A stretch of DNA of 64,000 nucleotides from a virus: IMG/VR virus record IMGVR_UViG_3300034104_005002, positions 97,055 through 161,054 of that record. One strand, written 5' to 3'. Both the position numbers and the translations under genes were made by a program. Each line of letters begins with the position of its first letter. Positions within the stretch are counted from its first letter, which is position 1. This document shows positions 24,047-59,107 of the stretch, piece after piece. A model generated the notes under the pieces. The model ran no database searches and had not been told where the DNA came from. It saw only the letters and a list, made by a program, of their open reading frames with translations.

Positions 24047-24760
24047 TCAAGAAATAGAGGTGGACAGAGTGCGGCCATTAAAAAACATTCCGCTTTGTTG
24101 AGGATTAAGCACCCCATCAAGGAAGTTTTGAATCACCGAGAGAGTAATCGCGGCAGCAAAGAAATTTGCCGAGATCAATTGAGGCCTAGAAGGTGTACTC
24201 AGAGCACAGGATCCCTTTTCTGGGATGCTGTCAATAGGGTTACTGATGTTGGGATAAGCAATACTAGGATCCATTCCAACACGTTCACCATTACATTTAC
24301 CAAACCAAAGAGTCTGGCCCTGTACTGATTCCGTGCCGTCACTATTACCTGGGGTAATAAAGAAAAAATCTTTATCAGAACAGGTAGTAGAGATTGCCTT
24401 TAGAACATCATGTCGAGTTGCATCATTGTCAACAGAACAAACAATCAGAGGAGACTCTGCTCGCTCCAGAAGAGGAATGAAAGAAGTCATTGAAATAAAA
24501 TCTTCCTTGCAGTCAACATTTTCTAGACCTTGAAAGGCACAGAAGTCTACCATTGCGCGGGCCTTGTTCATGCCAATTTGTGATGGGCCTACAATTTGAC
24601 GAGTTTGGTTGTGCTCTTCAAATTCATCACCATCAATAAAAACTACTTTGGCGTTTTCTGTGGCCGGATGGTGCGCAACAAGACGGGCAATAGGTGATGC
24701 AAGATAGCCGCCAGTGCCACCTACTCCTACAATAAAAACGGTGTCAGGATTGAAATTCAT
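24047..24760 (-). CDS. E1-like adenylyltransferase (PRTRC-type ThiF)
   Basis: A 237-residue ThiF/E1 fold. The nucleotide loop is VGVGGTGG (residues 11-18), followed by IDGDEFEEHNQTRQ (42-55) in place of the canonical DxDxVexSNLnRQ, Lys66 in GMNKAR and DNDATR (111-116). Cys185 in KGSCAL followed by PQLISANFFAAA matches the Cys and 'Q.LI.N' segment of PRTRC-type ThiF proteins. The enzyme would adenylate, and perhaps thioesterify, the C-terminus of the Ubl encoded at 27183-27449. It is 70 bases downstream of the protein-B-like gene. Confidence 0.85.
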   Translation of the reverse strand: MNFNPDTVFIVGVGGTGGYLASPIARLVAHHPATENAKVVFIDGDEFEEHNQTRQIVGPSQIGMNKARAMVDFCAFQGLENVDCKEDFISMTSFIPLLERAESPLIVCSVDNDATRHDVLKAISTTCSDKDFFFITPGNSDGTESVQGQTLWFGKCNGERVGMDPSIAYPNISNPIDSIPEKGSCALSTPSRPQLISANFFAAAITLSVIQNFLDGVLNPQQSGMFFNGRTLSTSIS

Positions 24761-24829
24761 GATTTAAGGTGAACTACTTTGCAAGTATAAAGGAGAAATG
24801 GGAGTGAGAAGCGAGGAGATGGACAGTTT

Positions 24830-25870
24830 TCAGGCTGTCACAAAGGATTCATCTAGCTGGCCAATTAGGTATCCTTCAGAAGAAATATACCATTTGCGGC
24901 CCACCGCATCTTCTTGAGTAGTGTAACCAAAATAGACCGAATCTTCTTTTTGAATTGTAGAAGTTTTTGCTGGAATGATCATTACATGCGGAGCTTCTGG
25001 AATTGGAGTAAATCCGGCCATCAACATCGTAAAGAATGCCTGAACGTCCTGATCTGCATCAATCATAATCAGACAATCATAACCAGAACACAAGAATTTA
25101 TGATCCGATTTATGGTAATTACCACATTCTATAGAATCTTTTAGGGCATTGATATTTTCTGTAAATCTAGCGAGCCTAAGAAGATCATTATTGAAATTTG
25201 ACTGAAAGTAGGAACTAACAATTCCCCGAAGATTCGCCGGAGAACTCACTTGCCCCCAACAGATTTTTCCATATATGTATCCAGTTTCATCTCTCTGGTC
25301 TGAACTGTAAACATTTGCCGCAGCAAATGAAGATGTCTGATAAATTACACCCTCTTCATAATAACCGGCCCGGAGGTGGGCATTATCTCCTTGGTAAACT
25401 TTTTTAAAACGAGGTGGGGTTCCTTTATAATTCAGTTTAATATCAAAGACCATATTGGAAATGGAGATTTTCTTTTCCTCTTTGGGTTTAGATTCATGGC
25501 CTTCCATACAGTGTTGGCCTGTATAACCATCCCACCATACGTCACATTCTGTTTGATTTTCCCTGGCATTCCTAAAGAATTCTGTTGACTCGTTTTCATC
25601 ATAGCTGCCGTCTTCTGCAAACACATTTGGATATGTGGTTTTCAGGTATTGAGTGGTTCGTCGCGGGCAATACTGGCAGTGATTGCTATAAAAATCTTCA
25701 TATTCGTTATAATTTGGATCAACTTCGCCAAATTCAGAATAATTTTCAGGCATCCAGGCCCTAATTGTAAGGGCCTGGGAATCTACCCGATAGGAAATAA
25801 ATTCCGCTTCAGAGGGAAGCAAGTGAGTGTTTACTTTGGCCGGATTTGTGGGAAAAATAGGATTCATCAT
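24830..25870 (-). CDS. PRTRC protein B-like, possible E2-like enzyme
   Basis: A 346-residue protein between the JAMM and E1 genes; its start overlaps the JAMM stop by 4 bases. YGKICWG (Cys204) followed by SPANLRG ... YFQSNFN recalls the CWG...F..S.F segment of PRTRC system protein B. The 'Y.yGKICW' pattern also recalls the active-site segment of E2 enzymes (G-x-I-C-L), which is an inference. CQYCP near residue 65 and TECD / QHCMEGH near 109-125 could bind zinc. If it is E2-like it would carry the Ubl thioester to targets. Confidence 0.6.
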   Translation of the reverse strand: MMNPIFPTNPAKVNTHLLPSEAEFISYRVDSQALTIRAWMPENYSEFGEVDPNYNEYEDFYSNHCQYCPRRTTQYLKTTYPNVFAEDGSYDENESTEFFRNARENQTECDVWWDGYTGQHCMEGHESKPKEEKKISISNMVFDIKLNYKGTPPRFKKVYQGDNAHLRAGYYEEGVIYQTSSFAAANVYSSDQRDETGYIYGKICWGQVSSPANLRGIVSSYFQSNFNNDLLRLARFTENINALKDSIECGNYHKSDHKFLCSGYDCLIMIDADQDVQAFFTMLMAGFTPIPEAPHVMIIPAKTSTIQKEDSVYFGYTTQEDAVGRKWYISSEGYLIGQLDESFVTA

Positions 25871-26817
25871 ACCTCCGCAAATTGGTGATCTTCGATGTAA
25901 ACAGAAAGCAAGGCCATAAGTTCTTCAATCTCTTCTGGGTTTCCTTTGTTTTGTTTTAGGAAATCCTCGATTACGTCTTCAATTTGATGGAGTTTAATAG
26001 ACTCTTTTTCAGGTGTTTGATAGCCCTGAAATTCATCCCAAAGCTCACTAAAATCTCCATTGATATTGTCCTTAAAACCAAATGGAGACTTGTAATTGTA
26101 ACCATTCCAATTGGTTCTTTGATTGGAGGAGTATTTGGTGACTACTGGTTTAGAATAATCAACATAATCAAGAACGTCTTCATGGAAAGTAAACCCTTCA
26201 AGTGGTTCGGTTTCAATAAGATCTTTATGGGGGATCTTAAAGCGCCGACCATTTGCCACAACAGAAGAAGCAATAGCGTAAGTCCGATCTTTGGCACTAA
26301 TGGATCCAACTACAATATGAATTCCAGGATCTCCCAGTTCATACTTATCATCGGTGCCCGAAAAGAAGGCTTGCATAGTGTTGTGGCTGTGGGAAGATCC
26401 AACAGGAATCCAGCCAATCGGAGGATAACTTGTAATGACTTCTCCAGTCTCAATGTCAATAGCATCATCAAATCTATCAACCCTCACAGATGTGGCAGAT
26501 ACTTTCTGTTTGGGAACAAGAATCCGATAAAGAGAGGGATCTTCTTCGCTGCGAAGAATACGAACCGAAACTTCTACATTAGAAGGAACTTTTTCAATAA
26601 AGTGAAAACAAAGCTGCACCCACCGTTGCCACAAATCCGCCGGGATTTTGTGAATGTCTTCATTAAGAGTGAATGATTCTAGATCTTCTTTGGAAATAAT
26701 TACGTTGGCATCTGGATCATCGGTGGGGCGAATGTACGTTCCCCAACCACCAGTATAAAGTTCAAAACATCCATGCTTGGCGGTTCGTAGAATCTTTGGG
26801 ATTTCTTGTGTTTCCAT
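25867..26817 (-). CDS. JAMM/JAB metallopeptidase (PRTRC protein A-like)
   Basis: SSHSHNTMQAFFSGTDD gives the exact JAMM signature H143-x-H145-x7-S153-x2-D156, with GIHIVVGSI as the following strand. A Glu upstream (perhaps E82) would complete the zinc site. JAMM enzymes remove or mature ubiquitin-like proteins. The 316-residue length and gene neighbours match PRTRC protein A. The N-terminal 100 residues are an added alpha/beta domain, and the C-terminal 60 residues are acidic helices. Confidence 0.87.
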   Translation of the reverse strand: METQEIPKILRTAKHGCFELYTGGWGTYIRPTDDPDANVIISKEDLESFTLNEDIHKIPADLWQRWVQLCFHFIEKVPSNVEVSVRILRSEEDPSLYRILVPKQKVSATSVRVDRFDDAIDIETGEVITSYPPIGWIPVGSSHSHNTMQAFFSGTDDKYELGDPGIHIVVGSISAKDRTYAIASSVVANGRRFKIPHKDLIETEPLEGFTFHEDVLDYVDYSKPVVTKYSSNQRTNWNGYNYKSPFGFKDNINGDFSELWDEFQGYQTPEKESIKLHQIEDVIEDFLKQNKGNPEEIEELMALLSVYIEDHQFAEV

Positions 26818-43255: not shown

Positions 43256-43519
43256 ATGATTTCTATTAAAAAATTCTGTTCAAACATAAAACTCGGTTGG
43301 TTATTAATTTTTGCCACCTTTACCTTGTGGAAAGATCACTTAAAAAATGAATCCACCTTTTGGGTAAGCCTTGAGCAAGATCGATCCATTCCAACATTTA
43401 ATTGGTCTGATTATGAGTGTTTTATAAAAACCCAAAAGAAACCAAGAGGTCGGGCAAAACCAAAATACCCAAATACAATTGCCGGGTTTTTAAAATGGCG
43501 TTCCGAATTTACTAAATAA
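43256..43519 (+). CDS. plus-strand hypothetical protein, 87 aa
   Basis: MISIKKFCSNIKLGWLLIFA: a hydrophobic segment is followed by a basic tail (TQKKPRGRAKPKYPNTIAGF). It opens the only plus-strand block and ends at a terminator hairpin (43523-43540). Confidence 0.55.
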   Translation: MISIKKFCSNIKLGWLLIFATFTLWKDHLKNESTFWVSLEQDRSIPTFNWSDYECFIKTQKKPRGRAKPKYPNTIAGFLKWRSEFTK

Positions 43520-43690
43520 AACAGGAGACGAAATTCTCCTCTTTAGAGAATAAGATGTATTACTAAAAGATTCCAGAAATGGCTCTTTCATTAATGCTTC
43601 TCCTCTAATTGGGTAACATAATCCAATTCTAAGAGAAATAATCTCAGACGACTCATTTGCAGCCGCCTGTAGAACCGACTCGTCTGACAT
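43490..43690 (-). CDS. antisense-overlapping protein, 66 aa
   Basis: MSDESVLQAAANESSEIISL, RIGLCYPIRGEALMKEPFLE: an amphipathic, protein-like sequence in a minus frame opposite the leader of the plus-strand block. Its last 10 codons overlap the end of 43256-43519. It looks real but is in an unexpected place. Confidence 0.4.
   Translation of the reverse strand: MSDESVLQAAANESSEIISLRIGLCYPIRGEALMKEPFLESFSNTSYSLKRRISSPVLFSKFGTPF
43523..43540 (+). terminator. terminator hairpin
   Basis: AGGAGA-CGAAAT-TCTCCT followed by CTTTAG on the plus strand, after the 87-residue gene. Confidence 0.55.
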
Positions 43691-43757
43691 TATGTCAGGA
43701 AGGAATTAGATTGTGTTACCAACAAACCACCCTTTCTTTTCCTTAGGAGAAAAACAA

Positions 43758-44552
43758 ATGCCAGACACAGTTTATGCACCGGATCCCTGGTCTATTCTTG
43801 CCGGTCAGCACTCAGACATTCGTAGAGAAGGTTCTGTAGAGCGCGGCGAGATTCGTTATGATGTTGCTACTCGCTCAGCCGATAACCGTTATGCTAATGC
43901 AGTCGGTCAAGGCGAAATCAAGTATGCAATTGCCGATCACGCTGAATCAACCAACCGTGATATTTTAACCACTGGTTATCATACTCAGGTTAAAGTCGAT
44001 GAGGCCGCTGATAAGATTCAGCAAAGAGCCACTGATTTCTATCTTGCTGGCCAAGCAAGAGATTTTGATACTTCCCGTGATGTTGCGGCTCTAAAAGCAA
44101 CTACAGACATGGCCTCCCAAAAACTCAGCACCGAGATTCTTCTCACTGCTGAAAGGGGGGCCACTGCTACTGCTCTTGAGTCCGCTAAAGTTGCCGCCGC
44201 TGTTGCCCTAGGTCAATCTCAACTCAGCAAGGAAATTGCCGAGAGCAAGTTTGAACTTAGCAAGCAGGTCGGTTATGAAAACGAGAAGACCCGTGACCTC
44301 ATCAATTCTCTCAAGAATGATGAACTCAATCGTCTTCTTATTGAGCGCAACACTGATCTCCAACATTGCCGCCACGACTATTGGGGTGCCAGAGATGGTC
44401 TCGTCAATACGCAATTTGCAGCCCTGTCTTCCCAGGTTAACTCTCAGCTAAATGCCCTAAACAGCCAAATTGCTGAGACCCGTCAAGGTATGGTTAACTT
44501 CGGAACCATGGCCGGTGTTGGTCAGTCCTCAACCAGCAACGCTGTACGCTGA
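43758..44552 (+). CDS. long helical protein, probably virion-associated, 264 aa
   Basis: The start at 43758 (MPDTVYAPDPWSILAGQ) has AGGAG 8 bases upstream. The body is an uninterrupted Ala/Glu/Lys helix suited to a fibre shaft or whisker. The end QIAETRQGMVNFGTMAGVGQ recurs in the small protein at 46041-46289 (SQIANIDQNMINFGDMTNVT). Followed by a strong terminator. Role in the virion is inferred from the block's layout. Confidence 0.65.
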   Translation: MPDTVYAPDPWSILAGQHSDIRREGSVERGEIRYDVATRSADNRYANAVGQGEIKYAIADHAESTNRDILTTGYHTQVKVDEAADKIQQRATDFYLAGQARDFDTSRDVAALKATTDMASQKLSTEILLTAERGATATALESAKVAAAVALGQSQLSKEIAESKFELSKQVGYENEKTRDLINSLKNDELNRLLIERNTDLQHCRHDYWGARDGLVNTQFAALSSQVNSQLNALNSQIAETRQGMVNFGTMAGVGQSSTSNAVR

Positions 44553-44571
44553 TTTAATTCAGTAGTTATCT

Positions 44572-44595
44572 GGGGGAGGTAACTCCCCCTTTTTT
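44572..44595 (+). terminator. strong intrinsic terminator
   Basis: GGGGGAG-GTAA-CTCCCCC followed by TTTTTT on the plus strand, between the helical protein and the collagen-like gene. Confidence 0.92.
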
Positions 44596-44611
44596 AAAAA
44601 GGAGAATAACT

Positions 44612-45145
44612 ATGGACTCAGCAGAAAGAAAACTCATTGATCTTTATAATCTTTTGGCCCAATATCAAAGAAATAATGACCCAGCCCTAGAGGGTGCCAT
44701 TAATTCAACTCGATCTGAAATAACATCGATGTTGAATGATCGTGGCGATAAAACTATCATCAAAATTGATGATAGGGACACTATCAACCACTGCAATGAA
44801 GGACCCCCAGGACCCCCAGGACCCCCAGGACCCCCAGGGGAGCCAGGAGTGTGTACCTGTAAATGCAAAAGCATCCTGGTTTCAGATGATTATGATGCTA
44901 CTTGCGATGATTACTATATCGGTGTCAACAGCAACGAACCTGTTACTATTACACTACCTGAAAACTGCATCGACTGTTATGAGATCATCGTAAAGGCAGA
45001 AATGGGTCCACCACTCGGAAATCGTAAAGTCACCATTACGACTTTGGATGGCTCATTAATTGACGGTGATGATGAGTACATTATTGAAGTACCTTATGAT
45101 TCAATCAACATAATTTGTCGTGGCGGCGATTGGCACATTATTTAA
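44612..45145 (+). CDS. collagen-like protein, 177 aa
   Basis: Shine-Dalgarno AAGGAG precedes the ATG. A helical head of 65 residues is followed by five tandem Gly-Pro-Pro / Gly-Glu-Pro triplets, a Cys knot-like VCTCKCKS and a C-terminal beta-rich 95 residues (a small head such as EPVTITLPENCIDCYE). Trimeric collagen-like shafts with globular heads are typical of phage fibres. The 9-base triplets CCAGGACCC repeat exactly. Confidence 0.8.
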   Translation: MDSAERKLIDLYNLLAQYQRNNDPALEGAINSTRSEITSMLNDRGDKTIIKIDDRDTINHCNEGPPGPPGPPGPPGEPGVCTCKCKSILVSDDYDATCDDYYIGVNSNEPVTITLPENCIDCYEIIVKAEMGPPLGNRKVTITTLDGSLIDGDDEYIIEVPYDSINIICRGGDWHII

Positions 45146-45154
45146 CCTAGAACC

Positions 45155-45952
45155 ATGAAATTTAATATTAAACCATCTCAAATTGACACTAGAGACTTTA
45201 TTTACCGAAACGATAGCACAGAGATCTTGCGGGAATCCGTAGATCTCCGTGAATGGGATACAATTGTCGAATCGCAAGACGATTTAGGTAGTTGCGCCGC
45301 CAATGCAATAACAAATGCCTATGAACTTTGCGTTAATCGAAATTATCCTGAACAGTTTACTCATCTAAGTAGATTATTTGTTTATTATAATACACGCCTT
45401 GAGCACGGAATAATCGAAGAAGACGAGGGAATGTTTCTTAGGGATGGCATGAAATCATTATCCAAATATGGAGTGTGTTGTGAAAAATTATGGCCTTATG
45501 ATATAGACAAATTCAACATAAAACCAAGTGAAGAGGCATATGAGGACGGTATAAAAAGAAAAATTCTTAATTACCAAAAACTTATAAGCACCTATTATAT
45601 TGCCCAGGTGATAAACAACAACAAACCAGTTGTATTTGGAATGACCATTTATGAAAGTTTTATGGATCTAAATGAGCGTATTTCTACTGTTACTTTTCCT
45701 TCTAGAAAGGAAAGAAATCTTGGAGGCCATGCTATGTGTATGGTTGGTTATGATTTAAATAAGAGACTATTTTTGGCAAAGAATAGTTTTGGGTCTGATT
45801 GGGGAGACAACGGCTATTGTTGGATTCCTTTTGATTATATTGAAAAAGAGGCATACGACATTTGGACATTTGATATCCCATCCCAAGCAGGAGAACTCAA
45901 TGTACTACCCCTACCCATACTATCCGTACCACAGGCGGAGATATTGTTATGA
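45155..45952 (+). CDS. papain-like cysteine peptidase (C1A)
   Basis: QDDLGSCAANAITNAY carries Gln41 and Cys47, GGHAMCMVGYD carries His192 and KNSFGSDWGDNGYCWIP carries Asn210: the complete papain tetrad. There is no signal peptide and only a short N-terminal region (IKPSQIDTRDF) instead of a propeptide, as in other phage or giant-virus C1 peptidases. Located among putative structural genes, it may process a virion protein or act on the host surface. Confidence 0.9.
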   Translation: MKFNIKPSQIDTRDFIYRNDSTEILRESVDLREWDTIVESQDDLGSCAANAITNAYELCVNRNYPEQFTHLSRLFVYYNTRLEHGIIEEDEGMFLRDGMKSLSKYGVCCEKLWPYDIDKFNIKPSEEAYEDGIKRKILNYQKLISTYYIAQVINNNKPVVFGMTIYESFMDLNERISTVTFPSRKERNLGGHAMCMVGYDLNKRLFLAKNSFGSDWGDNGYCWIPFDYIEKEAYDIWTFDIPSQAGELNVLPLPILSVPQAEILL

Positions 45953-46028
45953 CGACTATTATTGGAATAGGTGCTATCCCTATTACAATAGATGGTATCC
46001 TTATTATTCCTACTACCCCTATTATTAA
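45900..46028 (+). CDS. Tyr/Pro-rich peptide, 42 aa, overlapping the peptidase gene
   Basis: Reads MYYPYPYYPYHRRRYCYDDY and stays Tyr-rich to its end. GGAG 8 bases upstream supports the start. The first 53 bases overlap the peptidase end in another frame, so it was created or coupled there. Confidence 0.6.
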   Translation: MYYPYPYYPYHRRRYCYDDYYWNRCYPYYNRWYPYYSYYPYY

Positions 46029-46040
46029 GGAGACTTAAAA

Positions 46041-46289
46041 ATGCATTATCGATTTAGGCCTTATCCTTATTATAGGCGTTATTATAATATTGATCCATAT
46101 TATTACAGGAGATATTATCCTTATAATGTGATTGACAGCCAAATTGCCAATATCGATCAAAACATGATCAATTTTGGTGATATGACGAATGTTACTCAGG
46201 ACGCGACCATTTATCAGTTGAGAAGTCCAGAAACAGAAAAAACCAATGAACCACCCGAAGAAGATGGATCATTGGTCTCAGCCACATAA
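46041..46289 (+). CDS. Tyr-rich small protein, 82 aa
   Basis: TAAGGAGA precedes the ATG. A Tyr/Arg/Pro-rich half (MHYRFRPYPYYRRYYNIDPY) is followed by SQIANIDQNMINFGDMTNVT, matching the C-terminus of the 264-residue helical protein. Probably binds or caps the same structure. Confidence 0.65.
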   Translation: MHYRFRPYPYYRRYYNIDPYYYRRYYPYNVIDSQIANIDQNMINFGDMTNVTQDATIYQLRSPETEKTNEPPEEDGSLVSAT

Positions 46290-46296
46290 TTTACCA

Positions 46297-46325
46297 GGCG
46301 GTGTTTAATCATCGCCTTTTTCTTT
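46297..46325. terminator. bidirectional terminator
   Basis: GGCG / CGCC stem with TTTTTCTTTT on the plus side, between convergent genes ending at 46289 (+) and 46305 (-). Confidence 0.7.
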
Positions 46326-47912: not shown

Positions 47913-48202
47913 TAATTATTCTCCTTTGGTGGTTTAATTTGTTGAAACGGTACATTTAGGGTGTCTGCATAAGAAACCGGACAATTTTCAGCTGTTCCGT
48001 ATTTGGCGACCCATCGGTTCAGGAGAATCTTAGCAGATTCCCTCCTAAAAGCAAAGGCCTCGCTTTTTTTATCGAAAAACTCCTGGGATTTTGGTGGAAA
48101 CTCGTGGGCCTCGACAATCAGATCATATTCTTTTTGATTCACAAAATCTAGATATTTTTGCCTATTCTCTTCGGATGGATTTTCAATTAGGTCTTCAATC
48201 AT
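47912..48202 (-). CDS. hypothetical helical protein, 96 aa
   Basis: MIEDLIENPSEENRQKYLDF onward; predicted helical. Shares one base with the downstream start (TAATG). Confidence 0.6.
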   Translation of the reverse strand: MIEDLIENPSEENRQKYLDFVNQKEYDLIVEAHEFPPKSQEFFDKKSEAFAFRRESAKILLNRWVAKYGTAENCPVSYADTLNVPFQQIKPPKENN

Positions 48203-48314
48203 AAGTCATCGGGATCCCCAAATCCAAGAAATACAGGGTGTCGTGGAAGTTCTTTTTGTGTACTTAATTATAATAACCCAAAAACACACCAGATTTTATC
48301 TCCAGTGTGCCAGT

Positions 48315-48926
48315 TTAAAAAGTGTCCTTTAGGTCTTGGAGCATTTTCTGTAGTTTTTTATAACGATTGATATAATGAAAAAACAGCCGCAATGTATTGA
48401 ATGCATCATCAGATGCCCTATGTGGCTCACCAATAAATTCTAGTTTGTTTCTAGAAAGTGCCGACTTTAGGCCACCTCTTGAGTTTCGCCCACTGGTCAT
48501 TTGTTGGAAAACATAAAGAGTTTTCACATCAAAAATTCGCCTTCCAAAAAAAGGAAAATTGATGCTCCTTTGATTAAACTCTTCTTTAAGTTCTGATGCA
48601 TCTGAAGAAAAGCCAGACCCACCCCAACAAATTGGATTAACGAAACAATCATAAGACCTTATAATTTTCCCCAATTCTTCGGCCACAGTCTCATGAGAAA
48701 CCGACTTCTCTTTGATAATTTCGTCGGTAATTCCTGTGAGTTCGGTGATAAATGGAGTGATTGGTTCTTGTGGGTCAAGATACCAATTGAATTTTTTAAT
48801 TTCTTCTGGTTTTATAGGAGATGCAACTGCTATACCAACCTCTATGATTTTAGGGGTGGTCCCGTCATTTTTATTGTTTAGTTCCAAATCCAGCGAAAGG
48901 TAGTTGATGTTTTTAGGTTGGTTCAT
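48315..48926 (-). CDS. DEDDh 3'-5' exonuclease (DnaQ/RNase T-like)
   Basis: Exo I SLDLELNN (Asp13, Glu15), a middle CWGGSGFSSDASEL (Asp109) and Exo III HRASDDAFNT (His169, Asp174) form the DEDDh site of the RNase H fold, 203 residues in length. It may trim RNA or DNA ends, or scavenge nucleotides. Stands alone with no polymerase domain. Confidence 0.87.
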   Translation of the reverse strand: MNQPKNINYLSLDLELNNKNDGTTPKIIEVGIAVASPIKPEEIKKFNWYLDPQEPITPFITELTGITDEIIKEKSVSHETVAEELGKIIRSYDCFVNPICWGGSGFSSDASELKEEFNQRSINFPFFGRRIFDVKTLYVFQQMTSGRNSRGGLKSALSRNKLEFIGEPHRASDDAFNTLRLFFHYINRYKKLQKMLQDLKDTF

Positions 48927-49083
48927 TAGAGTCTAAGATTTGAGTAAGTGAGTCAACAAGTTTTCCCAGAAGTCTGGCTCTTTGTGGTGGAGTATTGGGA
49001 CAATCCCACAACATATCAACAAATCTATTAAGCCGAGGAATAATTTCTACTCGGATTTGTTGTTCTTTATCAGTGTAGGTCAT
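48913..49083 (-). CDS. small helical protein, 56 aa
   Basis: MTYTDKEQQIRVEIIPRLNR onward; start at 49083 because the earlier frame overlaps the upstream gene. Overlaps the exonuclease start by 14 bases. Confidence 0.6.
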   Translation of the reverse strand: MTYTDKEQQIRVEIIPRLNRFVDMLWDCPNTPPQRARLLGKLVDSLTQILDSNEPT

Positions 49084-49084
49084 T

Positions 49085-49273
49085 TTAGATGTCCTCTTGG
49101 TCACTGAATACTTTGGCAAATTCTTCGGTGGCTTCAAATGCATATTGGGCTGCCATAAAAAAGATTTTCCGCCTCTCTTGTTCGGTAACAGTACCAAGAC
49201 CTTGAGCAGTTTTTGCCCATTCAATAAAGAGAGTTTGGCCGATGTCAACAAATCGTTGGTCACTAAAATTCAT
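49085..49273 (-). CDS. small helical protein, tail shared with a chimera, 62 aa
   Basis: MNFSDQRFVDIGQTLFIEWA ... EATEEFAKVFSDQEDI. The same unit forms the C-terminal half of the protein at 18820-19119. Confidence 0.65.
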   Translation of the reverse strand: MNFSDQRFVDIGQTLFIEWAKTAQGLGTVTEQERRKIFFMAAQYAFEATEEFAKVFSDQEDI

Positions 49274-50959: not shown

Positions 50960-51073
50960 CTATTTAAGACCGCCCATAAACGAATAAGATTCTGCGTCAC
51001 CCCATTGAAGCCCAACAGAGACGTAGCGCGAGATAATGAAGTCTTCCCATAAAGATTTAAAAAAGTTAATCAT
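50960..51073 (-). CDS. small protein downstream of terminase-like gene, 37 aa
   Basis: MINFFKSLWEDFIISRYVSV then GLQWGDAESYSF. Overlaps the terminase-like stop by 4 bases. It shows no resemblance to a nuclease domain. Confidence 0.55.
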   Translation of the reverse strand: MINFFKSLWEDFIISRYVSVGLQWGDAESYSFMGGLK

Positions 51074-51819
51074 AATTCGTATTCACGTTTAAAGGCATCT
51101 TCCCCAATATTTTTAATCACTTCTTCCTTCCAATTATTGTCTAGCCTAGGAATATCTCTCCAATCATATTCAGATAATGAATATTTGTTTATACCATCCT
51201 TTGCATCTTCAACCAGCTCATTAAAATAACTACCTTCTTTTTTGGTACTTGCGATGATTATTTTGGGGGAGTTATTGCGACCAAAGAAAGAAGCCAATAA
51301 ATTCTGAGAAGTATAGTACTCCATAAACGCAAATTCATCTAAAAATGCGTGAGTATATTCCCAATTCTCCCAAGTTTCAGGGGTAGAAATATTTGTTACT
51401 ATTTTTACCCTAGAATTATTTTTAAGTATTATCCACATTGAGGTTCTTTTTACTATTCCGGGTTTAATCCAATCGGGTAACTGTTCATATGTATTATAGA
51501 ATCGTTCAAGTAAATATTTTGAATTTTGATAACTAAAACTACTAATCACAATATTGCAATTAGATTTAAAAATTGCCTGATGTAAAAGATAGAATAATGG
51601 AACCGATGATTTGCCAAATTGTCTTGGGGCCTTTATAAGATTGTATTTGTTTTTATGAATTTTTTTGACAATTTCTTCTTGGGCGGGATAAAGAAGAAAA
51701 GGCGCATTATCTTCTTTAAGCGAAGAAAATTTCACATAATTGTTAATAAAATAAATTGGGTCATTAGAACATTTAATTGATTCTGAAAAATGAAGAATTT
51801 TGTTTAATAAGTTAATCAT
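51070..51819 (-). CDS. terminase large subunit ATPase domain only (T4 gp17-like)
   Basis: Start at 51819 (an earlier TTG frame exists). Walker A KAPRQFGKSS (Lys70), AFLDEFAF as Walker B with Glu162, and a coupling segment IIASTKKEGS appear in the gp17 order. The protein ends at FKREYEL, exactly where the nuclease domain should begin, so 249 residues remain versus about 550-610 for a full subunit. It may be a split or vestigial terminase or a different packaging/repair ATPase. Confidence 0.75.
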   Translation of the reverse strand: MINLLNKILHFSESIKCSNDPIYFINNYVKFSSLKEDNAPFLLYPAQEEIVKKIHKNKYNLIKAPRQFGKSSVPLFYLLHQAIFKSNCNIVISSFSYQNSKYLLERFYNTYEQLPDWIKPGIVKRTSMWIILKNNSRVKIVTNISTPETWENWEYTHAFLDEFAFMEYYTSQNLLASFFGRNNSPKIIIASTKKEGSYFNELVEDAKDGINKYSLSEYDWRDIPRLDNNWKEEVIKNIGEDAFKREYEL

Positions 51820-51820
51820 A

Positions 51821-51946
51821 TCAAAAGGGTTGAATGTGGTCAAGAATACTTACAATAAAAGGCAGCATAAGAAAAAACAATAGCCAAGAAATTTGGACTA
51901 ATTCAAGGCAAATCCAAAAAAGAAAAATCGGATAAAGAAAATACAT
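51821..51946 (-). CDS. small membrane protein, 41 aa
   Basis: MYFLYPIFLFWICLELVQIS continuing WLLFFLMLPFIV: two hydrophobic helices. Couples by TGATG to the upstream gene. Confidence 0.55.
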   Translation of the reverse strand: MYFLYPIFLFWICLELVQISWLLFFLMLPFIVSILDHIQPF

Positions 51947-52848
51947 CACACAATATTGTTTATAAAATTCCTATCAGGAACGAGGCTCTGCTGATTCCTC
52001 AACATTGTACCATTAAACCCGTCCATTAGCAAGAGGTTGTACCCTCGGCTCCAGGCGCTCTGCAGACCAGAAACATTAGACCGAAGAGGCCAAGAGTGGT
52101 CCGTATCAAATATAATTGGCTTATTACTCTTAGAGAATTGTCCTTTACTTAGGGCAGTAAAAGTCGGACCAAACCAATCTGCTCCTGTATTTTTCATCCA
52201 TACTGATTCATCTCTACCACTAGATGCTCTAATCCCCCGAGCATAAGAAACGCCAACTGGTTTATTCGTCCACTTGTTAATCCATTTTACAACTTGTCTT
52301 TGGAACCAGTTGGCGGATTGAGACATCAACTCATTTCCAACCTCATAAATGACATTATCATAAGGTTCAAGAATTTCTACGACTTCTTTAACATGGGCTC
52401 TTTGAAATTTATTCCAGGGGCCTCTTGTATGAACAAGTTCGTGTGCCTTTGGTCCTAGACCATTGAATGGATGATTCTCCCAGGCTAGGGGAAAAATATC
52501 AGGAATAGAACCTTCAAAAAGAACGACTCCGGTTACAATGTCTCTTTTTTCGGCTCTTTTTACGGCATCTTCTAGATTTTTATAAAAATTCTTGTTTAGA
52601 GAACCGTCTTTCTTCCAGGGACCGTTTTTGATTCTTACAATACCGGGAGTATTACTACCCCATTGTGATTGAGAAAAGTTTGCTCCTTTTGTTTCTACTG
52701 TCCAGAGTCTTGTGAAGTTCCCGGTTATCTTATCAATTCCTATTTTTTCACCACCAATTGTCTGAACAGTGTTCCAGGTGTGATTACCAGCAAGGCGAAT
52801 TTTCTTTCCGTCTTTGTAGAAATTTTTACCTTTTATGGTGATAGCCAT
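51946..52848 (-). CDS. glycoside-hydrolase-like TIM-barrel protein, 300 aa
   Basis: The start MAITIKGKNFYKDGKKIRLA is the beta-strand head common to clan GH-A enzymes. GNHTWNTVQT, FTRLWTVETKGA and EVGNELMSQSA (a likely NE acid/base) follow the (beta/alpha)8 order, and FDTDHSWP then FNGTM lie late. It would cut a host polysaccharide during adsorption or release. CCTAAATAGT lies about 20-30 bases upstream. Confidence 0.72.
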   Translation of the reverse strand: MAITIKGKNFYKDGKKIRLAGNHTWNTVQTIGGEKIGIDKITGNFTRLWTVETKGANFSQSQWGSNTPGIVRIKNGPWKKDGSLNKNFYKNLEDAVKRAEKRDIVTGVVLFEGSIPDIFPLAWENHPFNGLGPKAHELVHTRGPWNKFQRAHVKEVVEILEPYDNVIYEVGNELMSQSANWFQRQVVKWINKWTNKPVGVSYARGIRASSGRDESVWMKNTGADWFGPTFTALSKGQFSKSNKPIIFDTDHSWPLRSNVSGLQSAWSRGYNLLLMDGFNGTMLRNQQSLVPDRNFINNIV

Positions 52849-52866
52849 AATCTTATTAAGAATTCC

Positions 52867-52878
52867 GACTATTTAGGG
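52867..52878 (-). promoter_or_regulatory. late-promoter-like CCTAAATAGTC
   Basis: Minus-strand CCCTAAATAGTC 19-30 bases before the hydrolase-like gene. Confidence 0.45.
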
Positions 52879-53031
52879 TTAGTCCCATATGATAAAGAAG
52901 TCTGATGCTGAAGATGATTCAGTTTTGGTTTCTGCTACAATTTTAAATGTACTTTTAAGTTTATCTAAAGTATAATCTACTTCCCAACAACCCCAAAAAG
53001 CTACGACAAGGACAAGAGTGGCTTCACCCAT
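52879..53031 (-). CDS. small membrane protein, 50 aa
   Basis: MGEATLVLVVAFWGCWEVDY, a short transmembrane segment with a Ser/Glu/Asp-rich tail. Ends right before the late promoter of the next gene. Confidence 0.55.
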   Translation of the reverse strand: MGEATLVLVVAFWGCWEVDYTLDKLKSTFKIVAETKTESSSASDFFIIWD

Positions 53032-53042
53032 ATAATGCGTTG

Positions 53043-53405
53043 CTACCCCACTACTCGGTTGACAAGCACGGATCTAATCTTGCCGGCGAAGGTAACATTC
53101 TCATTATAGGCTATCCTGGAAGCGTAGACCGGTTCGCCATTGGATGTCTCAAGATTTGAAGCTCTAACAATTCTTGGTTCACTTTCAAGAGCCATGGAAA
53201 CCGTACTAACCGACAGCTGAGCCTCTTCAGAGATTTGTTCAATAGTAAACCAAATGTTTTCGGGAGAGAATCTTGGCTTAATTTTTTTCCCCATTATTGT
53301 CTTCCACTGTACTTTGTGCTTGCGGGAAGGTTTATTCTTTTCGGCCCAGTCGTTGATGATACTTAGGCACTTTTTAAGATGTTCGTCTTGTTCTTGTTCA
53401 GTCAT
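53043..53405 (-). CDS. winged-helix/HTH protein, 120 aa
   Basis: The start at 53405 is by the 8-base overlap. Residues 60-95 (WFTIEQISEEAQLSVSTVSM, ALESEPRIVRASN) form an HTH with 'sv.TVS.aL', as in small winged-helix DNA binders. Probably a phage regulator. Confidence 0.65.
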   Translation of the reverse strand: MTEQEQDEHLKKCLSIINDWAEKNKPSRKHKVQWKTIMGKKIKPRFSPENIWFTIEQISEEAQLSVSTVSMALESEPRIVRASNLETSNGEPVYASRIAYNENVTFAGKIRSVLVNRVVG

Positions 53406-53646
53406 TACTATGCTCCATACAGATTTTAATACTCGATAAACAACAGTTCCATCCATTGTCAAAATCATCATAAATCGGGTCTTGTGATTCTGGAATAACA
53501 TCCTGAAAGTGTGTCAAAACCTCATCTACTGCCATATTGACTTTTACACTCCAATGGGTTCTCTCATACTCGGGGTCATAAAAGACAGATTTGATACCAT
53601 CAAAAAGTTTTTGGCGAAACTCACTTGCGGGTTCTCTCAAATCCAC
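53398..53646 (-). CDS. hypothetical acidic protein, 82 aa
   Basis: MDLREPASEFRQKLFDGIKS onward; helical with two Cys near the end. Overlaps the regulator gene by 8 bases. Confidence 0.6.
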   Translation of the reverse strand: MDLREPASEFRQKLFDGIKSVFYDPEYERTHWSVKVNMAVDEVLTHFQDVIPESQDPIYDDFDNGWNCCLSSIKICMEHSND

Positions 53647-53692
53647 ATAACCTCTTTCGTCAATGGGTGCATTAAGTATCCGTTGGAGGTAC

Positions 53693-54115
53693 TTATTTGG
53701 AGTTGATTCTGGTGGAGGGGGATTCTTCTTTTAGTTCATATTCTCCTACTTCATTAGAAGTATATGTATTTTTGGCCCATTCTAACCACTGGTCAGCGGT
53801 CATATTATAATACCCATTAGGTCCGACACTAGAAAGTAATTCTCCAAATATAAGTGCTACTGTTTTCCAGTCATTACTTTCTGGTTTAGTATCCCTAATG
53901 ATTTTATTAGCATCTTTAACTAATGATTGATGGGCCTCATAGCCTTTTTTAAAAACAACCCAAAAAGGTTCTCCCATAGGATACGCCCCATAAATTGTTT
54001 TATAAGCCTCTTCTGCGGGAGTTTTTGTTTTTTCTATCTCTTCAAGAAACTCCAATTTACTTTGAAGTACCTTGATTTCTGATTTTACCTTTTCGATTTC
54101 GTTATCAAAAGTCAT
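53693..54115 (-). CDS. hypothetical protein, 140 aa
   Basis: A coiled-coil head (FDNEIEKVKSEIKVLQSKLE) followed by AYKTIYGAYPMGEPFWVVFK, KGYEAHQS, a segment I have seen in phage proteins ('W..F..GYEA'). Function unknown. Confidence 0.6.
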   Translation of the reverse strand: MTFDNEIEKVKSEIKVLQSKLEFLEEIEKTKTPAEEAYKTIYGAYPMGEPFWVVFKKGYEAHQSLVKDANKIIRDTKPESNDWKTVALIFGELLSSVGPNGYYNMTADQWLEWAKNTYTSNEVGEYELKEESPSTRINSK

Positions 54116-54641
54116 TTTCAAATTCCTCCAATTGTTGTTTCTTAATCTCTAGAATTCTTCCGGTCTCTTTATGAACAAGTTCCTGAAGTTCTAATTCGCG
54201 TGTCATCAAATGTTGGGGTCCGAGTAAATCGTGATAAACCTCAATTCTTGCCATATGGCACATATGAAGCAGCTCAAAAAAATCTTTCTCAAGTTGAATT
54301 CCCTCACCTAGCTCCCTACCCAAAAGAGTCTCACAAACAGACTTATGGGCAATGAATTGGAAGTCCCACCACCTCCCATAAGGGTCAATTTCTTCTTCTA
54401 CGTGAGAAGGAGAACATCCATAATCATCATAATCCTCGACGGAGATATAAACAAATTCTCCGCAAGATTGATTATTGTCCCAATAACGTTCATTAAAGTG
54501 AGACAGACTTAGAATAGAGTGTGTAGTAAATTTTTTGATGCCTCCAAAACTATATGTTGGTTTTACGAAAGCAACGAAAACTGGTTCGCCAGCACTGATT
54601 TCAGTACGAGTGATGCAACAAGAAGCAGAAAAACATCCCAT
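54105..54641 (-). CDS. conserved phage protein 'MGC....C.IT...I..G', 178 aa
   Basis: The start MGCFSASCCITRTEISAGEP with Cys3/Cys8/Cys9 and GEPVFVAFV is the head of a recurring phage protein type of unknown function. A 'DYDDYGC' acidic loop and a helical C-terminal half follow. Confidence 0.65.
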   Translation of the reverse strand: MGCFSASCCITRTEISAGEPVFVAFVKPTYSFGGIKKFTTHSILSLSHFNERYWDNNQSCGEFVYISVEDYDDYGCSPSHVEEEIDPYGRWWDFQFIAHKSVCETLLGRELGEGIQLEKDFFELLHMCHMARIEVYHDLLGPQHLMTRELELQELVHKETGRILEIKKQQLEEFENDF

Positions 54642-54662
54642 GATAATTAAGTGTGTTGGATT

Positions 54663-54836
54663 TTAATAAAGTACAATATCGTCATTATCTTCATAATCAT
54701 TAACAATCTGAACATTATATAATCTATGTTCAAGTATTGCATCCACCATACGAGCAAGCATTGAATCATCCCTCACCTTCATTATTTCTTCTATGGCCTT
54801 TGACCTAGTAATTCTTATAGTGCTATATGGGCTCAT
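54663..54836 (-). CDS. small phage protein 'MSPYSTIRITRSKA', 57 aa
   Basis: MSPYSTIRITRSKAIEEIMK, then ILEHRLYNVQIVNDYEDNDD: a common small T4-like phage type. Confidence 0.65.
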   Translation of the reverse strand: MSPYSTIRITRSKAIEEIMKVRDDSMLARMVDAILEHRLYNVQIVNDYEDNDDIVLY

Positions 54837-54842
54837 AAATTT

Positions 54843-55013
54843 TCAATCCTTGGTATAATGTTGAGCATTTACAGTCTCGGCTATTAAAATCTTTTCAAAG
54901 GCTTCTCCAATACTGTCTGCGATTCCCTCATAATGGTCAACCCCATCAGGACCAGTAATTAGTTTCCAGCGATAATTATTATCTTGTGGTTGGTAAATGA
55001 TTTCAATTTTCAT
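54843..55013 (-). CDS. small protein, 56 aa
   Basis: MKIEIIYQPQDNNYRWKLIT onward; two strands and a helix. Couples (ATGA) to the upstream gene. Confidence 0.55.
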   Translation of the reverse strand: MKIEIIYQPQDNNYRWKLITGPDGVDHYEGIADSIGEAFEKILIAETVNAQHYTKD

Positions 55014-55216
55014 TTGCACTCTCTTTTCAGTTGATTTACAAGGTCTTTTGCTTGGTCTAGAAATGCCCTTGATTGATGTGCCCGATCCTTATGAATCAAA
55101 GTCCAATCAGGTTTCTCTGTGCTTTCAAGGACACATCCGGGTCCAATCGTCCCCCGTGTGTATTCGATTGCAGTCCAAAGTCGTTCAAGTTGTTCTTTGG
55201 TGATTGTGGTTTTCAT
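55010..55216 (-). CDS. small helical protein, 68 aa
   Basis: MKTTITKEQLERLWTAIEYT onward, basic helical; no family recognised. Confidence 0.6.
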   Translation of the reverse strand: MKTTITKEQLERLWTAIEYTRGTIGPGCVLESTEKPDWTLIHKDRAHQSRAFLDQAKDLVNQLKRECK

Positions 55217-55226
55217 AATTTGCCCC

Positions 55227-55616
55227 TCAATCCTTAATGAGGTCTACAAGGTCATAAAATTCATTATACACCTCTTCAAGACCACTAGCGTGCCCTTTAT
55301 CCCAGGCAAGTTCAAACGCCCTGTGCCTTTTAGGGTTATCGCTCACATTAAAATTTTCAAAGAGGTCATTGATAAACTCTCCATGAAGTTTATGAACTTC
55401 CTCAACATACTGTTTTTGATGTGTCTTATATCCTTCTTCATTAAGAACTTCTTGGATTACCGCGTTAGGATACTCATCCATCAATTGCCTTTTGGATTTT
55501 TGAAACCCAAAAGATTTAGTAACACAAATCCCTTTATCATAAACATAAAGGGTGATATAATCTTTTTTGTTAGGGTATTGAATTTGATAATTGGAGTAAT
55601 ATTCAAAGGGTTTCAT
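55227..55616 (-). CDS. paralogous protein family A, 129 aa
   Basis: MKPFEYYSNYQIQYPNKKDY ... ITLYVYDKGICV with a helical half ending ELAWDKGHASGLEEVY. Paralogue of 46593-46985. The start is preceded by AGGAGAC. Confidence 0.65.
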   Translation of the reverse strand: MKPFEYYSNYQIQYPNKKDYITLYVYDKGICVTKSFGFQKSKRQLMDEYPNAVIQEVLNEEGYKTHQKQYVEEVHKLHGEFINDLFENFNVSDNPKRHRAFELAWDKGHASGLEEVYNEFYDLVDLIKD

Positions 55617-57910: not shown

Positions 57911-59107
57911 CTATTGATTTTCTAGACGTTTCACCGCAGATGCTAAATGATGACTAGCACCATTTAGTCTTAATTCCGCTCCACGTCCGTAATCGACATA
58001 CTCTGCCGATGTTAATTCTTGACCCGAAAGGTCTGACCATCCTTTTTTGAGGATGTTGATAGAGGCATTTAGGTCTCTATCGTGATTAGAACCACAAGAA
58101 GGACAAGTCCATTCTCTAATGTTTAGAGGCATTTGGTCCTCTTTATGACCACAATTAGAACAAGTTTTACTTGATGGATAAAATCGGTCTATTTTAACCA
58201 GAGTTTTTCCGTACCAATTACACTTGTATTTTAACATATCCACAAAAGTAGACCAAGAGGCATCGCTAATGGATTTAGCAAGTTTGTGGTTTTTTAACAT
58301 TCCGGAAACATTTAGGTCTTCAACAACAATTAAATCAAAAGTCTTGACAAGTTGTGTTGAAACATTATGAAGAAAATATGTTCTTGAGTTGGTAATATTT
58401 TCATAAACCTTAGCAACTTTAATACGTTGTCTATTGTAACGATTACTACCTTTGGTCTTCCGACTTAAATGTTTCTGTGCTTTTTTAAGTTTAGATTGGT
58501 TCTTTCTAAACCATTTGGGATTGTTAATGACTTGCCCATTACTTAAGATGAACAAATCCTTTAAACCCAAATCAATACCTACTACTTTACCAGTTGAGGG
58601 TATTGGGTTGAGTTCTTGTTGAACTAAAATCGAAACAAAATATTTGTCAGTTGGAGTTTTAGAAACAGTAATACTTCTAAAGTCGGCTTCTTCAGGGATA
58701 GTTCGGTCTAGAACAATTTTGACCCAACCAATTTTTTCAAGTCTAACTAAAGACTTTTCTTGGTCCAAAGTAAACTTTTGATTGGGTAGTCTAAATGATT
58801 GTCTGTTAAATTTTTTCTTGAACTTTGGTCGCCCAAGTTTAGTTTTTCGTTTTTTATTGAAGTATTGTTTTTTGAATTCAATAAAATCTCTTGTTTTTTG
58901 TTGGAGGGTTGCTGCAGAAACTTCCTTAAGAAACTCAAACTCCTCTTGGTCTTTTAGTGTCTTTTCATTTACTGTAGAACCATCATTATTATTAAAATTT
59001 TCAACAAGTTTGTTCCAGACAAATCTACAACAACCAAAAGTTTTAGAAAATAAAATCTCTTGTTCTTTTGTAGGATAAATCCTATATTTGTATGCCTTTA
59101 AATGCAT
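57911..59107 (-). CDS. tnpB: TnpB (IS605-family OrfB), RNA-guided nuclease
   Basis: 398 residues with N-terminal YKYRIYPTKEQE, RuvC Asp179 in VVGIDLGLKD, Glu263 in VVEDLNV, and Asp345 in HDRDLNASIN. Zinc finger Cys316, Cys319, Cys335, Cys338 (CSNCG, CPSCG) is complete. All catalytic residues are present, so it should be active with an omega RNA from its 3' end. No TnpA is near. A CTAAATG / CATTTAG stem-loop lies at 57943-57967 within the last codons. A CTAAATAGT late-promoter-like site lies about 25-35 bases upstream. Confidence 0.94.
   Translation of the reverse strand: MHLKAYKYRIYPTKEQEILFSKTFGCCRFVWNKLVENFNNNDGSTVNEKTLKDQEEFEFLKEVSAATLQQKTRDFIEFKKQYFNKKRKTKLGRPKFKKKFNRQSFRLPNQKFTLDQEKSLVRLEKIGWVKIVLDRTIPEEADFRSITVSKTPTDKYFVSILVQQELNPIPSTGKVVGIDLGLKDLFILSNGQVINNPKWFRKNQSKLKKAQKHLSRKTKGSNRYNRQRIKVAKVYENITNSRTYFLHNVSTQLVKTFDLIVVEDLNVSGMLKNHKLAKSISDASWSTFVDMLKYKCNWYGKTLVKIDRFYPSSKTCSNCGHKEDQMPLNIREWTCPSCGSNHDRDLNASINILKKGWSDLSGQELTSAEYVDYGRGAELRLNGASHHLASAVKRLENQ

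Follow-up and report, generated by a model that had tools for sequence, protein, structure and literature searches.

A candidate late operon for an accessory virion fibre, preceded by a structured leader RNA, in uncultured T4-like phages

A plus-strand block of five genes at positions 43758–46289 of the window (the 64-kb stretch of viral DNA analyzed here, which forms the end of an uncultured virus record of 161 kb) probably constitutes a late operon of T4-like phages, optional and self-contained, that builds an accessory fibre or decoration on the head or tail of the virion; we place the probability of this reading at about 0.7. The initial annotation had proposed an undescribed fibre or decoration module at this location, and the proposal is supported by the AF2 helix of the first protein, the collagen segment and knob of the second, a paralogue of the knob next to the portal gene in the same genome, the late promoter sequence, and the adjacency of rod and collagen genes in 40 of 42 loci. 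All of the elements that it named are present where it had placed them, and the unit extends upstream of the earlier start at 43758 to include a late promoter and a structured leader of about 240 nt at 43512–43757.

Source Phage and Distribution of the Cassette

The record of the window has a T4-type Gp23 major capsid gene (record positions 47942–49093) whose product is 88% identical to that of Synechococcus phage B23, its closest named relative by capsid protein, and the phage is therefore a T4-like cyanophage. B23 is a freshwater member of the Kyanoviridae (PMC7171214). B23 has no match to the rod or the collagen/knob profiles and no significant match to the leader RNA. The cassette lies about 92 kb from the capsid gene.

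The rod gene was found in about 70 IMG/VR loci (51 with P0001 as query and 69 with the P0001 alignment). The carriers, uncultured T4-like phages that number in the dozens, are on contigs reaching about 400 kb; their records have T4-type Gp23 capsid genes, and the gene neighbors of the cassette vary among them. In one distant carrier (G007) the capsid protein is nearest to those of Sinorhizobium phage Phosso, Vibrio phage 2.275.O, and Pseudomonas phage PA5oct; the cassette is thus common to two T4-like branches that differ greatly, and it behaves like an optional module. A detectable rod is missing from every isolated phage among 50,697 phage records, and tblastn searches of these records with the rod, a distant rod, a second collagen protein, and the second knob protein gave no match. 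Bacterial genomes scanned with the rod and collagen profiles contained no relative, and no paper in the literature searched deals with a papain plus collagen-like cassette in jumbo phages. Record G000 has four tandem paralogues of about 255 residues between its capsid and portal genes (L125, 14218–17375, minus strand; record positions 52217–55374) that share the segment GNGS.K / YSIGESL and have the appearance of repeated decoration-type genes.

Organization of the Gene Block

The genes are arranged in the order P0001, P0002, P0003, P0005, P0004 and are flanked on both sides by small genes that are mainly on the minus strand, in agreement with the earlier description of a block transcribed opposite to its surroundings. 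Elsewhere in the window, minus-strand genes for a ThiF/E1-like protein (24047–24760) and a JAB-like protein (25867–26817), both recognized by reading, lie near each other and resemble a ubiquitin-like conjugation module (24047–26817). A 257-residue match to the N-terminal part of the T4-type terminase large subunit (51070–51843, minus strand; Pfam PF03237, E 3e-11) falls short of the length of a full terminase and lies at a distance from the capsid cluster, and may be a split or partial copy. A 300-residue protein (51946–52848, minus strand) looks like a glycoside hydrolase by reading but gave no match in Pfam at E 0.01. A TnpB/OrfB-like transposon protein of 398 residues, also identified by reading, is encoded at 57911–59107 (minus strand) with a TATAAATA-like element 154 bp upstream.

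Shine-Dalgarno sites, which had been attributed to the block as a whole, are present before four of the five genes. The protease gene, P0003, has no such site and is probably translated by coupling to the collagen gene, which ends 9 bp before it. The strong terminators also reported for the block are represented by terminator-like hairpins with T-runs after P0001 and P0004; such hairpins number 12 as compared with 2.9 ± 1.6 in shuffled sequences. The first, a GC-rich hairpin between the rod and collagen genes (44572–44595, plus strand; hairpin proper 44572–44589, followed by T6), has the features of an attenuator or terminator, and the second, at the end of the operon, occupies 46296–46325 (plus strand; hairpin proper 46296–46317, with a T-run). 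The hairpin after the rod gene is found by a strict perfect-stem rule in 16 of 32 relatives and by eye in nearly all of the others. Because of this GC-rich hairpin, the rod would be expected to be the most abundant product.

A census was made of the 42 loci that have at least 3.5 kb of sequence downstream, using text patterns for detection. A collagen-like gene follows the rod gene in 40 of these loci. Many relatives have a second gene, missing from the window, that combines fibre-like β repeats with the same knob. This second knob gene is present in at least 23 loci, a motif-bearing Tyr-rich gene in at least 20, and a protease in at least 19; these counts are lower bounds, since detection by text pattern overlooks some genes (the dead protease of L117, for example, is not counted).

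Late Promoter and Regulation

The element CTAAATA at 43512–43518 (plus strand) resembles a T4-type late promoter and has the form TATAAATA or ATAAATA in most relatives. Its TAAATA core is invariant at the aligned place in all 12 distinct window-like relatives, 240–310 bp upstream of the rod gene and followed by a stem-loop, and is present likewise in leaders outside the alignment (L142, L143, L145, L146, L147, L150, and L152). It matches the T4 late promoter sequence, from which late expression is predicted, and elements like it are found ahead of structural genes in these phages. A scan for sigma-70 promoters gave results near background (13 versus 9.4).

In distant relatives the cassette is headed by a gene for a LuxR/GerE-type regulator upstream of the rod (L034, L035, L036, L037, L117, L119, L120, and L121; for L035, the Pfam match has E 4e-17). 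In nearly all of these relatives TAAGTA, or sometimes TAAATA, is located about 46–111 bp upstream of the rod gene, and the regulator beside it is possibly the cassette's own activator. A regulator of this kind and a protease that is optional look like parts of an autonomous accessory unit, and, together with the isolated position of the block on the opposite strand, away from the structural genes, and the low complexity of the Tyr-rich proteins, they would suit a cassette that acts on the host rather than in the virion. Its late proteins would then be placed on the cell surface or envelope, as an adhesive layer of Tyr-rich and collagen-like proteins with a protease, and might, for example, interfere with superinfection or modify the sheath of the host. 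We consider this improbable: no export signals were seen on reading the proteins, the promoter sequence is of the T4 late type, and the gp10/tailspike-type knob and its paralogue beside the portal gene, described below, point to virion proteins.

The Rod Protein

P0001 (43758–44552, plus strand), which had been described as a helical protein of 264 residues, is indeed predicted by AF2 (pLDDT 80) to form a single helix of 230 residues (residues 19–248) with a low-confidence tail; all of the AF2 models are of monomers. The tail, NSQIAETRQGMVNFGTMAGVGQSSTSNAVR, encoded at 44457–44549 (plus strand), is non-helical and nearly invariant. The final 30 or so residues of the rod (...SQLQETRQGMVNFGTMAGVGQSSTSNNVR) are almost fixed among family members, whereas the identity of the rest falls to 31–40% in distant members and the length of the rod varies. 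Family-averaged hydrophobicity peaks at 98.5 degrees, as in coiled coils with 11-residue (hendecad) repeats. For P0001 on its own the periodicity is not significant (152 of 1000 shuffles), and the rows of the family alignment are related rather than independent, so that the periodicity supports a coiled coil but does not prove it.

The rod profile gave only chance coiled-coil matches in the PDB. Links of the rod to PHROG are weak: 7 of 30 rod members match phrog_9415, a family of unknown function, with a best E of 2e-5. The whiskers of T4, formed by fibritin (Wac), are a long helical rod of a T4-type phage that is presumably oligomeric and is optional, and in these respects the window rod may work in a similar way. 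The comparison extends only to this general likeness, however: the rod of the window has no Pfam, PHROG, or PDB sequence match and no foldon, and its conserved element is instead the non-helical C-terminal tail.

The Collagen-like Protein and Its Knob

P0002 (177 residues; 44612–45145, plus strand) comprises a helical hairpin (residues 3–43), a Gly-X-Y segment (residues 64–79), and a β knob (residues 86–177). The collagen segment is very short, with about five Gly-X-Y triplets, and in the predicted structure it is flanked by conserved cysteines. The match to Pfam PF01391 scores 17.8 bits (cut-off 27.2), and the relatives hold many more triplets. In having a Gly-X-Y segment followed by a C-terminal β domain, P0002 resembles the collagen-like fibre proteins of phages (PF01391; phrog_5073, phrog_366), and a distant member of the cassette matches tail-fibre PHROGs such as phrog_5073 and phrog_366 at E values down to 3e-16. 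It differs from them in being the product of a short stand-alone gene and in its N-terminal helical hairpin, and the collagen gene of the cassette is nearly always paired with the rod gene, far from the tail genes. One T4-like record of about 400 kb that has the cassette (G008) also contains an open frame of 6003 residues with dozens of collagen-like stretches (C1, about 128857–146442, partly in L128), a giant collagen-like protein.

By fold, the knob is similar to T4 gp10, an Acinetobacter phage tailspike, CBA120 TSP4, and the capsid spike of Pseudomonas phage Pa223 (Foldseek E 4e-5 to 1e-3), as well as to a Klebsiella phage baseplate protein, and in BFVD it resembles many fibre proteins and collagen proteins of phages. 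For gp10, TSP4, and the Pa223 spike the Foldseek E values are 1e-4 to 1e-3 with a probability of 1.00, but only the knob of about 90 residues is common to these proteins, with a sequence identity of 12–22%. The same genome encodes a 219-residue paralogue that is 36% identical to the P0002 knob (E 1e-14). Its gene has the portal gene (phrog_213, E 6e-211) on one side and a virion structural gene of phrog_1645 on the other, in a cluster that includes the tail tube and sheath genes. In Salicola phage SCTP-2 a knob gene likewise adjoins a gene of the phrog_1645 type, and the knob is thus at home among the virion genes of this phage lineage.

The Papain-like Protease

The papain-type protease that had been noted between the rod and Tyr-rich genes is P0003 (265 residues; 45155–45952, plus strand; Pfam Peptidase_C1, E 4e-14), a C1A enzyme with intact catalytic residues. 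Gln41, Cys47, His192, and Asn210 are invariant in the first 19 relatives aligned. Its closest solved structure is xylellain (PDB 3ois; whole-length profile match, E 5e-66), with which it shares the catalytic residues and the N-terminal DxRD segment; unlike the xylellain-type peptidases, the enzyme of the cassette is embedded among fibre genes and is sometimes catalytically dead. That tailed phages have acquired xylellain-type peptidases by transfer is already on record (PMC10380794). Other large phages, Burkholderia phage FLC9 for example, have stand-alone relatives of P0003.

The protease had been suggested to mature its neighbors. Its intact Gln/Cys/His/Asn set, its orientation in common with the putative substrates, and the conserved non-helical tail at the end of the rod would agree with processing of the rod, collagen-like, and Tyr-rich proteins during assembly. 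By pattern detection, however, no protease was found in 23 of the 42 cassettes, most of which retain the rod and collagen genes, and some of the copies that exist are defective: in L117 Ser replaces the catalytic Cys and the Gln is lost, in L015 an internal deletion removes the Cys region, and in L048 only a remnant of 92 residues is left. Because the enzyme is found in only 19 of the 42 loci and is dead or truncated in some, it is accessory and not essential to the cassette, and is not a general maturase; the maturation idea is weak and the least probable of the readings considered here.

The same distribution bears on a role in lysis, in which a late-expressed papain-type endopeptidase would act with a holin-like product of a coiled-coil/transmembrane gene. 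Five window-like relatives have a DUF7201/holin-like gene (phrog_1296) directly after the Tyr-rich gene; such coiled-coil and transmembrane proteins, with a weak holin match, are encoded at L009:9237, L012:9280, L018:7688, L022:9348, and L023:9226. A related papain domain is annotated as an endolysin in Alicyclobacillus phage MMB025, and the protease, joined in some relatives by the holin-like gene, would also fit a lytic or host-attack role. Lysis is nevertheless very unlikely as the purpose of the cassette, as rod and collagen genes persist where the protease is missing or defective, the window has no holin-like gene, and the conserved endolysin/holin pair of lysis cassettes is not seen, with a protease detected in 19 of 42 loci and the holin-like gene in a minority.

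The Tyr-rich Proteins and the Shared Motif

P0005, a peptide of 42 residues of which 20 are Tyr (45900–46028, plus strand), overlaps the 3' end of the protease gene and has its own Shine-Dalgarno site. It is the second and shorter of the Tyr-rich open reading frames and lacks the motif discussed below. Homologues (42–53 residues, Tyr-rich, with a Shine-Dalgarno-like site) are present in 14 of 22 loci checked, all of them window-like. P0004 (82 residues; 46041–46289, plus strand) contains a copy of the rod tail, NVIDSQIANIDQNMINFGDMTNVTQDAT, encoded at 46125–46208 (plus strand), in which the segment SQIANIDQNMINFGDMTNVTQ matches the tail. The C-terminal motif that the rod and the Tyr-rich protein had been said to share is confirmed by comparison of the pair alone (14 of 28 residues identical, BLASTP E 1e-7) and of the profiles of the two families (hhalign E 2.7e-8 over 36 columns). 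When 13 related records were scanned with the tail peptide, the rod was recovered, along with a Tyr-rich carrier in four records, two of which represent the window's own species; no third carrier of the motif was found in them. Since no other part of the rod is as constrained as the motif, it is plausible that the motif docks the rod and P0004 to the same partner.

The Structured Leader RNA

The leader (43520–43757, plus strand; about 240 nt) is predicted to fold into elements P0, P1, P2, and P3. P0 is a 5' stem-loop directly after the promoter (43523–43540, plus strand), with compensatory changes in three of its six pairs and 95.8% of cells paired. P1 is closed by the strands TTAGAG (43543–43548) and CTCTAA (43603–43608), and P2 (43612–43623 with 43709–43720), also on the plus strand, encloses the long hairpin P3 (about 43639–43696). 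The minimum free energy of the leader has a z-score of -6.6 relative to shuffled sequences. The consensus from 12 sequences contains 55 pairs with 96.0% of cells paired, as compared with 36–50% in a strand-sliding control, and 14 of the pairs have changes on both sides (34 cells), a level reached in none of 500 shuffles. Four sequences outside the alignment form 217 of 220 pairs, and the more distant leader of L104 keeps 37 pairs, with 12 broken and 6 gaps. The TTAGAG and CTCTAA strands are invariant in 12 of 12 sequences and complementary in 72 of 72 cells, with no covariation; the pairing holds even with an insert between them.

The CCAATT strand can pair either upstream (6 double-changed cells) or within P2 (14 double-changed cells in 12 pairs); this choice of partners hints at a switch without proving one. 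Of 13 records searched with a covariance model of the leader, 9 gave a single strong plus-strand match per genome, in each case upstream of the rod gene, whereas no significant match was obtained in B23, FLC9, or SCTP-2; a search of Rfam 15 gave no overlapping match up to E 10. A match to the leader pattern in L148 was attributed to chance and discarded. Minus-strand coding was rejected as a cause of the conservation because the frames shift between relatives while the pairing is kept, and because model scores for the plus strand far exceed those for the minus strand. Judged from sequence comparison, the leader is a well-supported, undescribed structured RNA before a probable late phage operon, and it is the least expected part of the unit. 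To our knowledge, there are few descriptions of large folded leaders that regulate late genes of phages.

Proposed Mechanism and Implications

For the preferred reading, an accessory fibre or decoration of the virion, the following sequence of events is proposed. The late transcription machinery of the phage would start at the TAAATA promoter, as its sequence supports, and produce a transcript with a protective 5' stem-loop followed by the folded leader of about 240 nt, which probably tunes the stability or translation of the first gene. The rod would be made in the largest amount, with read-through limited by the hairpin that follows its gene. We infer that the rod oligomerizes as a long coiled coil whose conserved non-helical C-terminal tail docks on a partner, and that the collagen-like protein trimerizes through its collagen segment and its gp10/tailspike-type knob to give a second fibre segment. 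The rod and the trimeric collagen-knob protein would then assemble into the accessory fibre. P0004, with its copy of the rod-tail motif, probably binds the same site as a cap, linker, or competitor, and the protease would be an accessory rather than a required maturase.

A more specific form of this proposal, which we advance tentatively as a possibility, is that the cassette specifies a new class of appendage, in which a hendecad rod is joined with a mini-collagen, a Tyr-rich partner protein carries a copy of the docking peptide, and synthesis is gated by a leader RNA with two mutually exclusive folds, CCAATT pairing with either the upstream AATTGG or the downstream GATTG-rich strand.

Large T4-like phages have many unexplained genes, and several of them show unexplained fibres or hairs. 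As a discrete unit that is common to cyanophage-like and PA5oct/Phosso-like T4 relatives and is unseen in isolates, the cassette supplies concrete genes to test.
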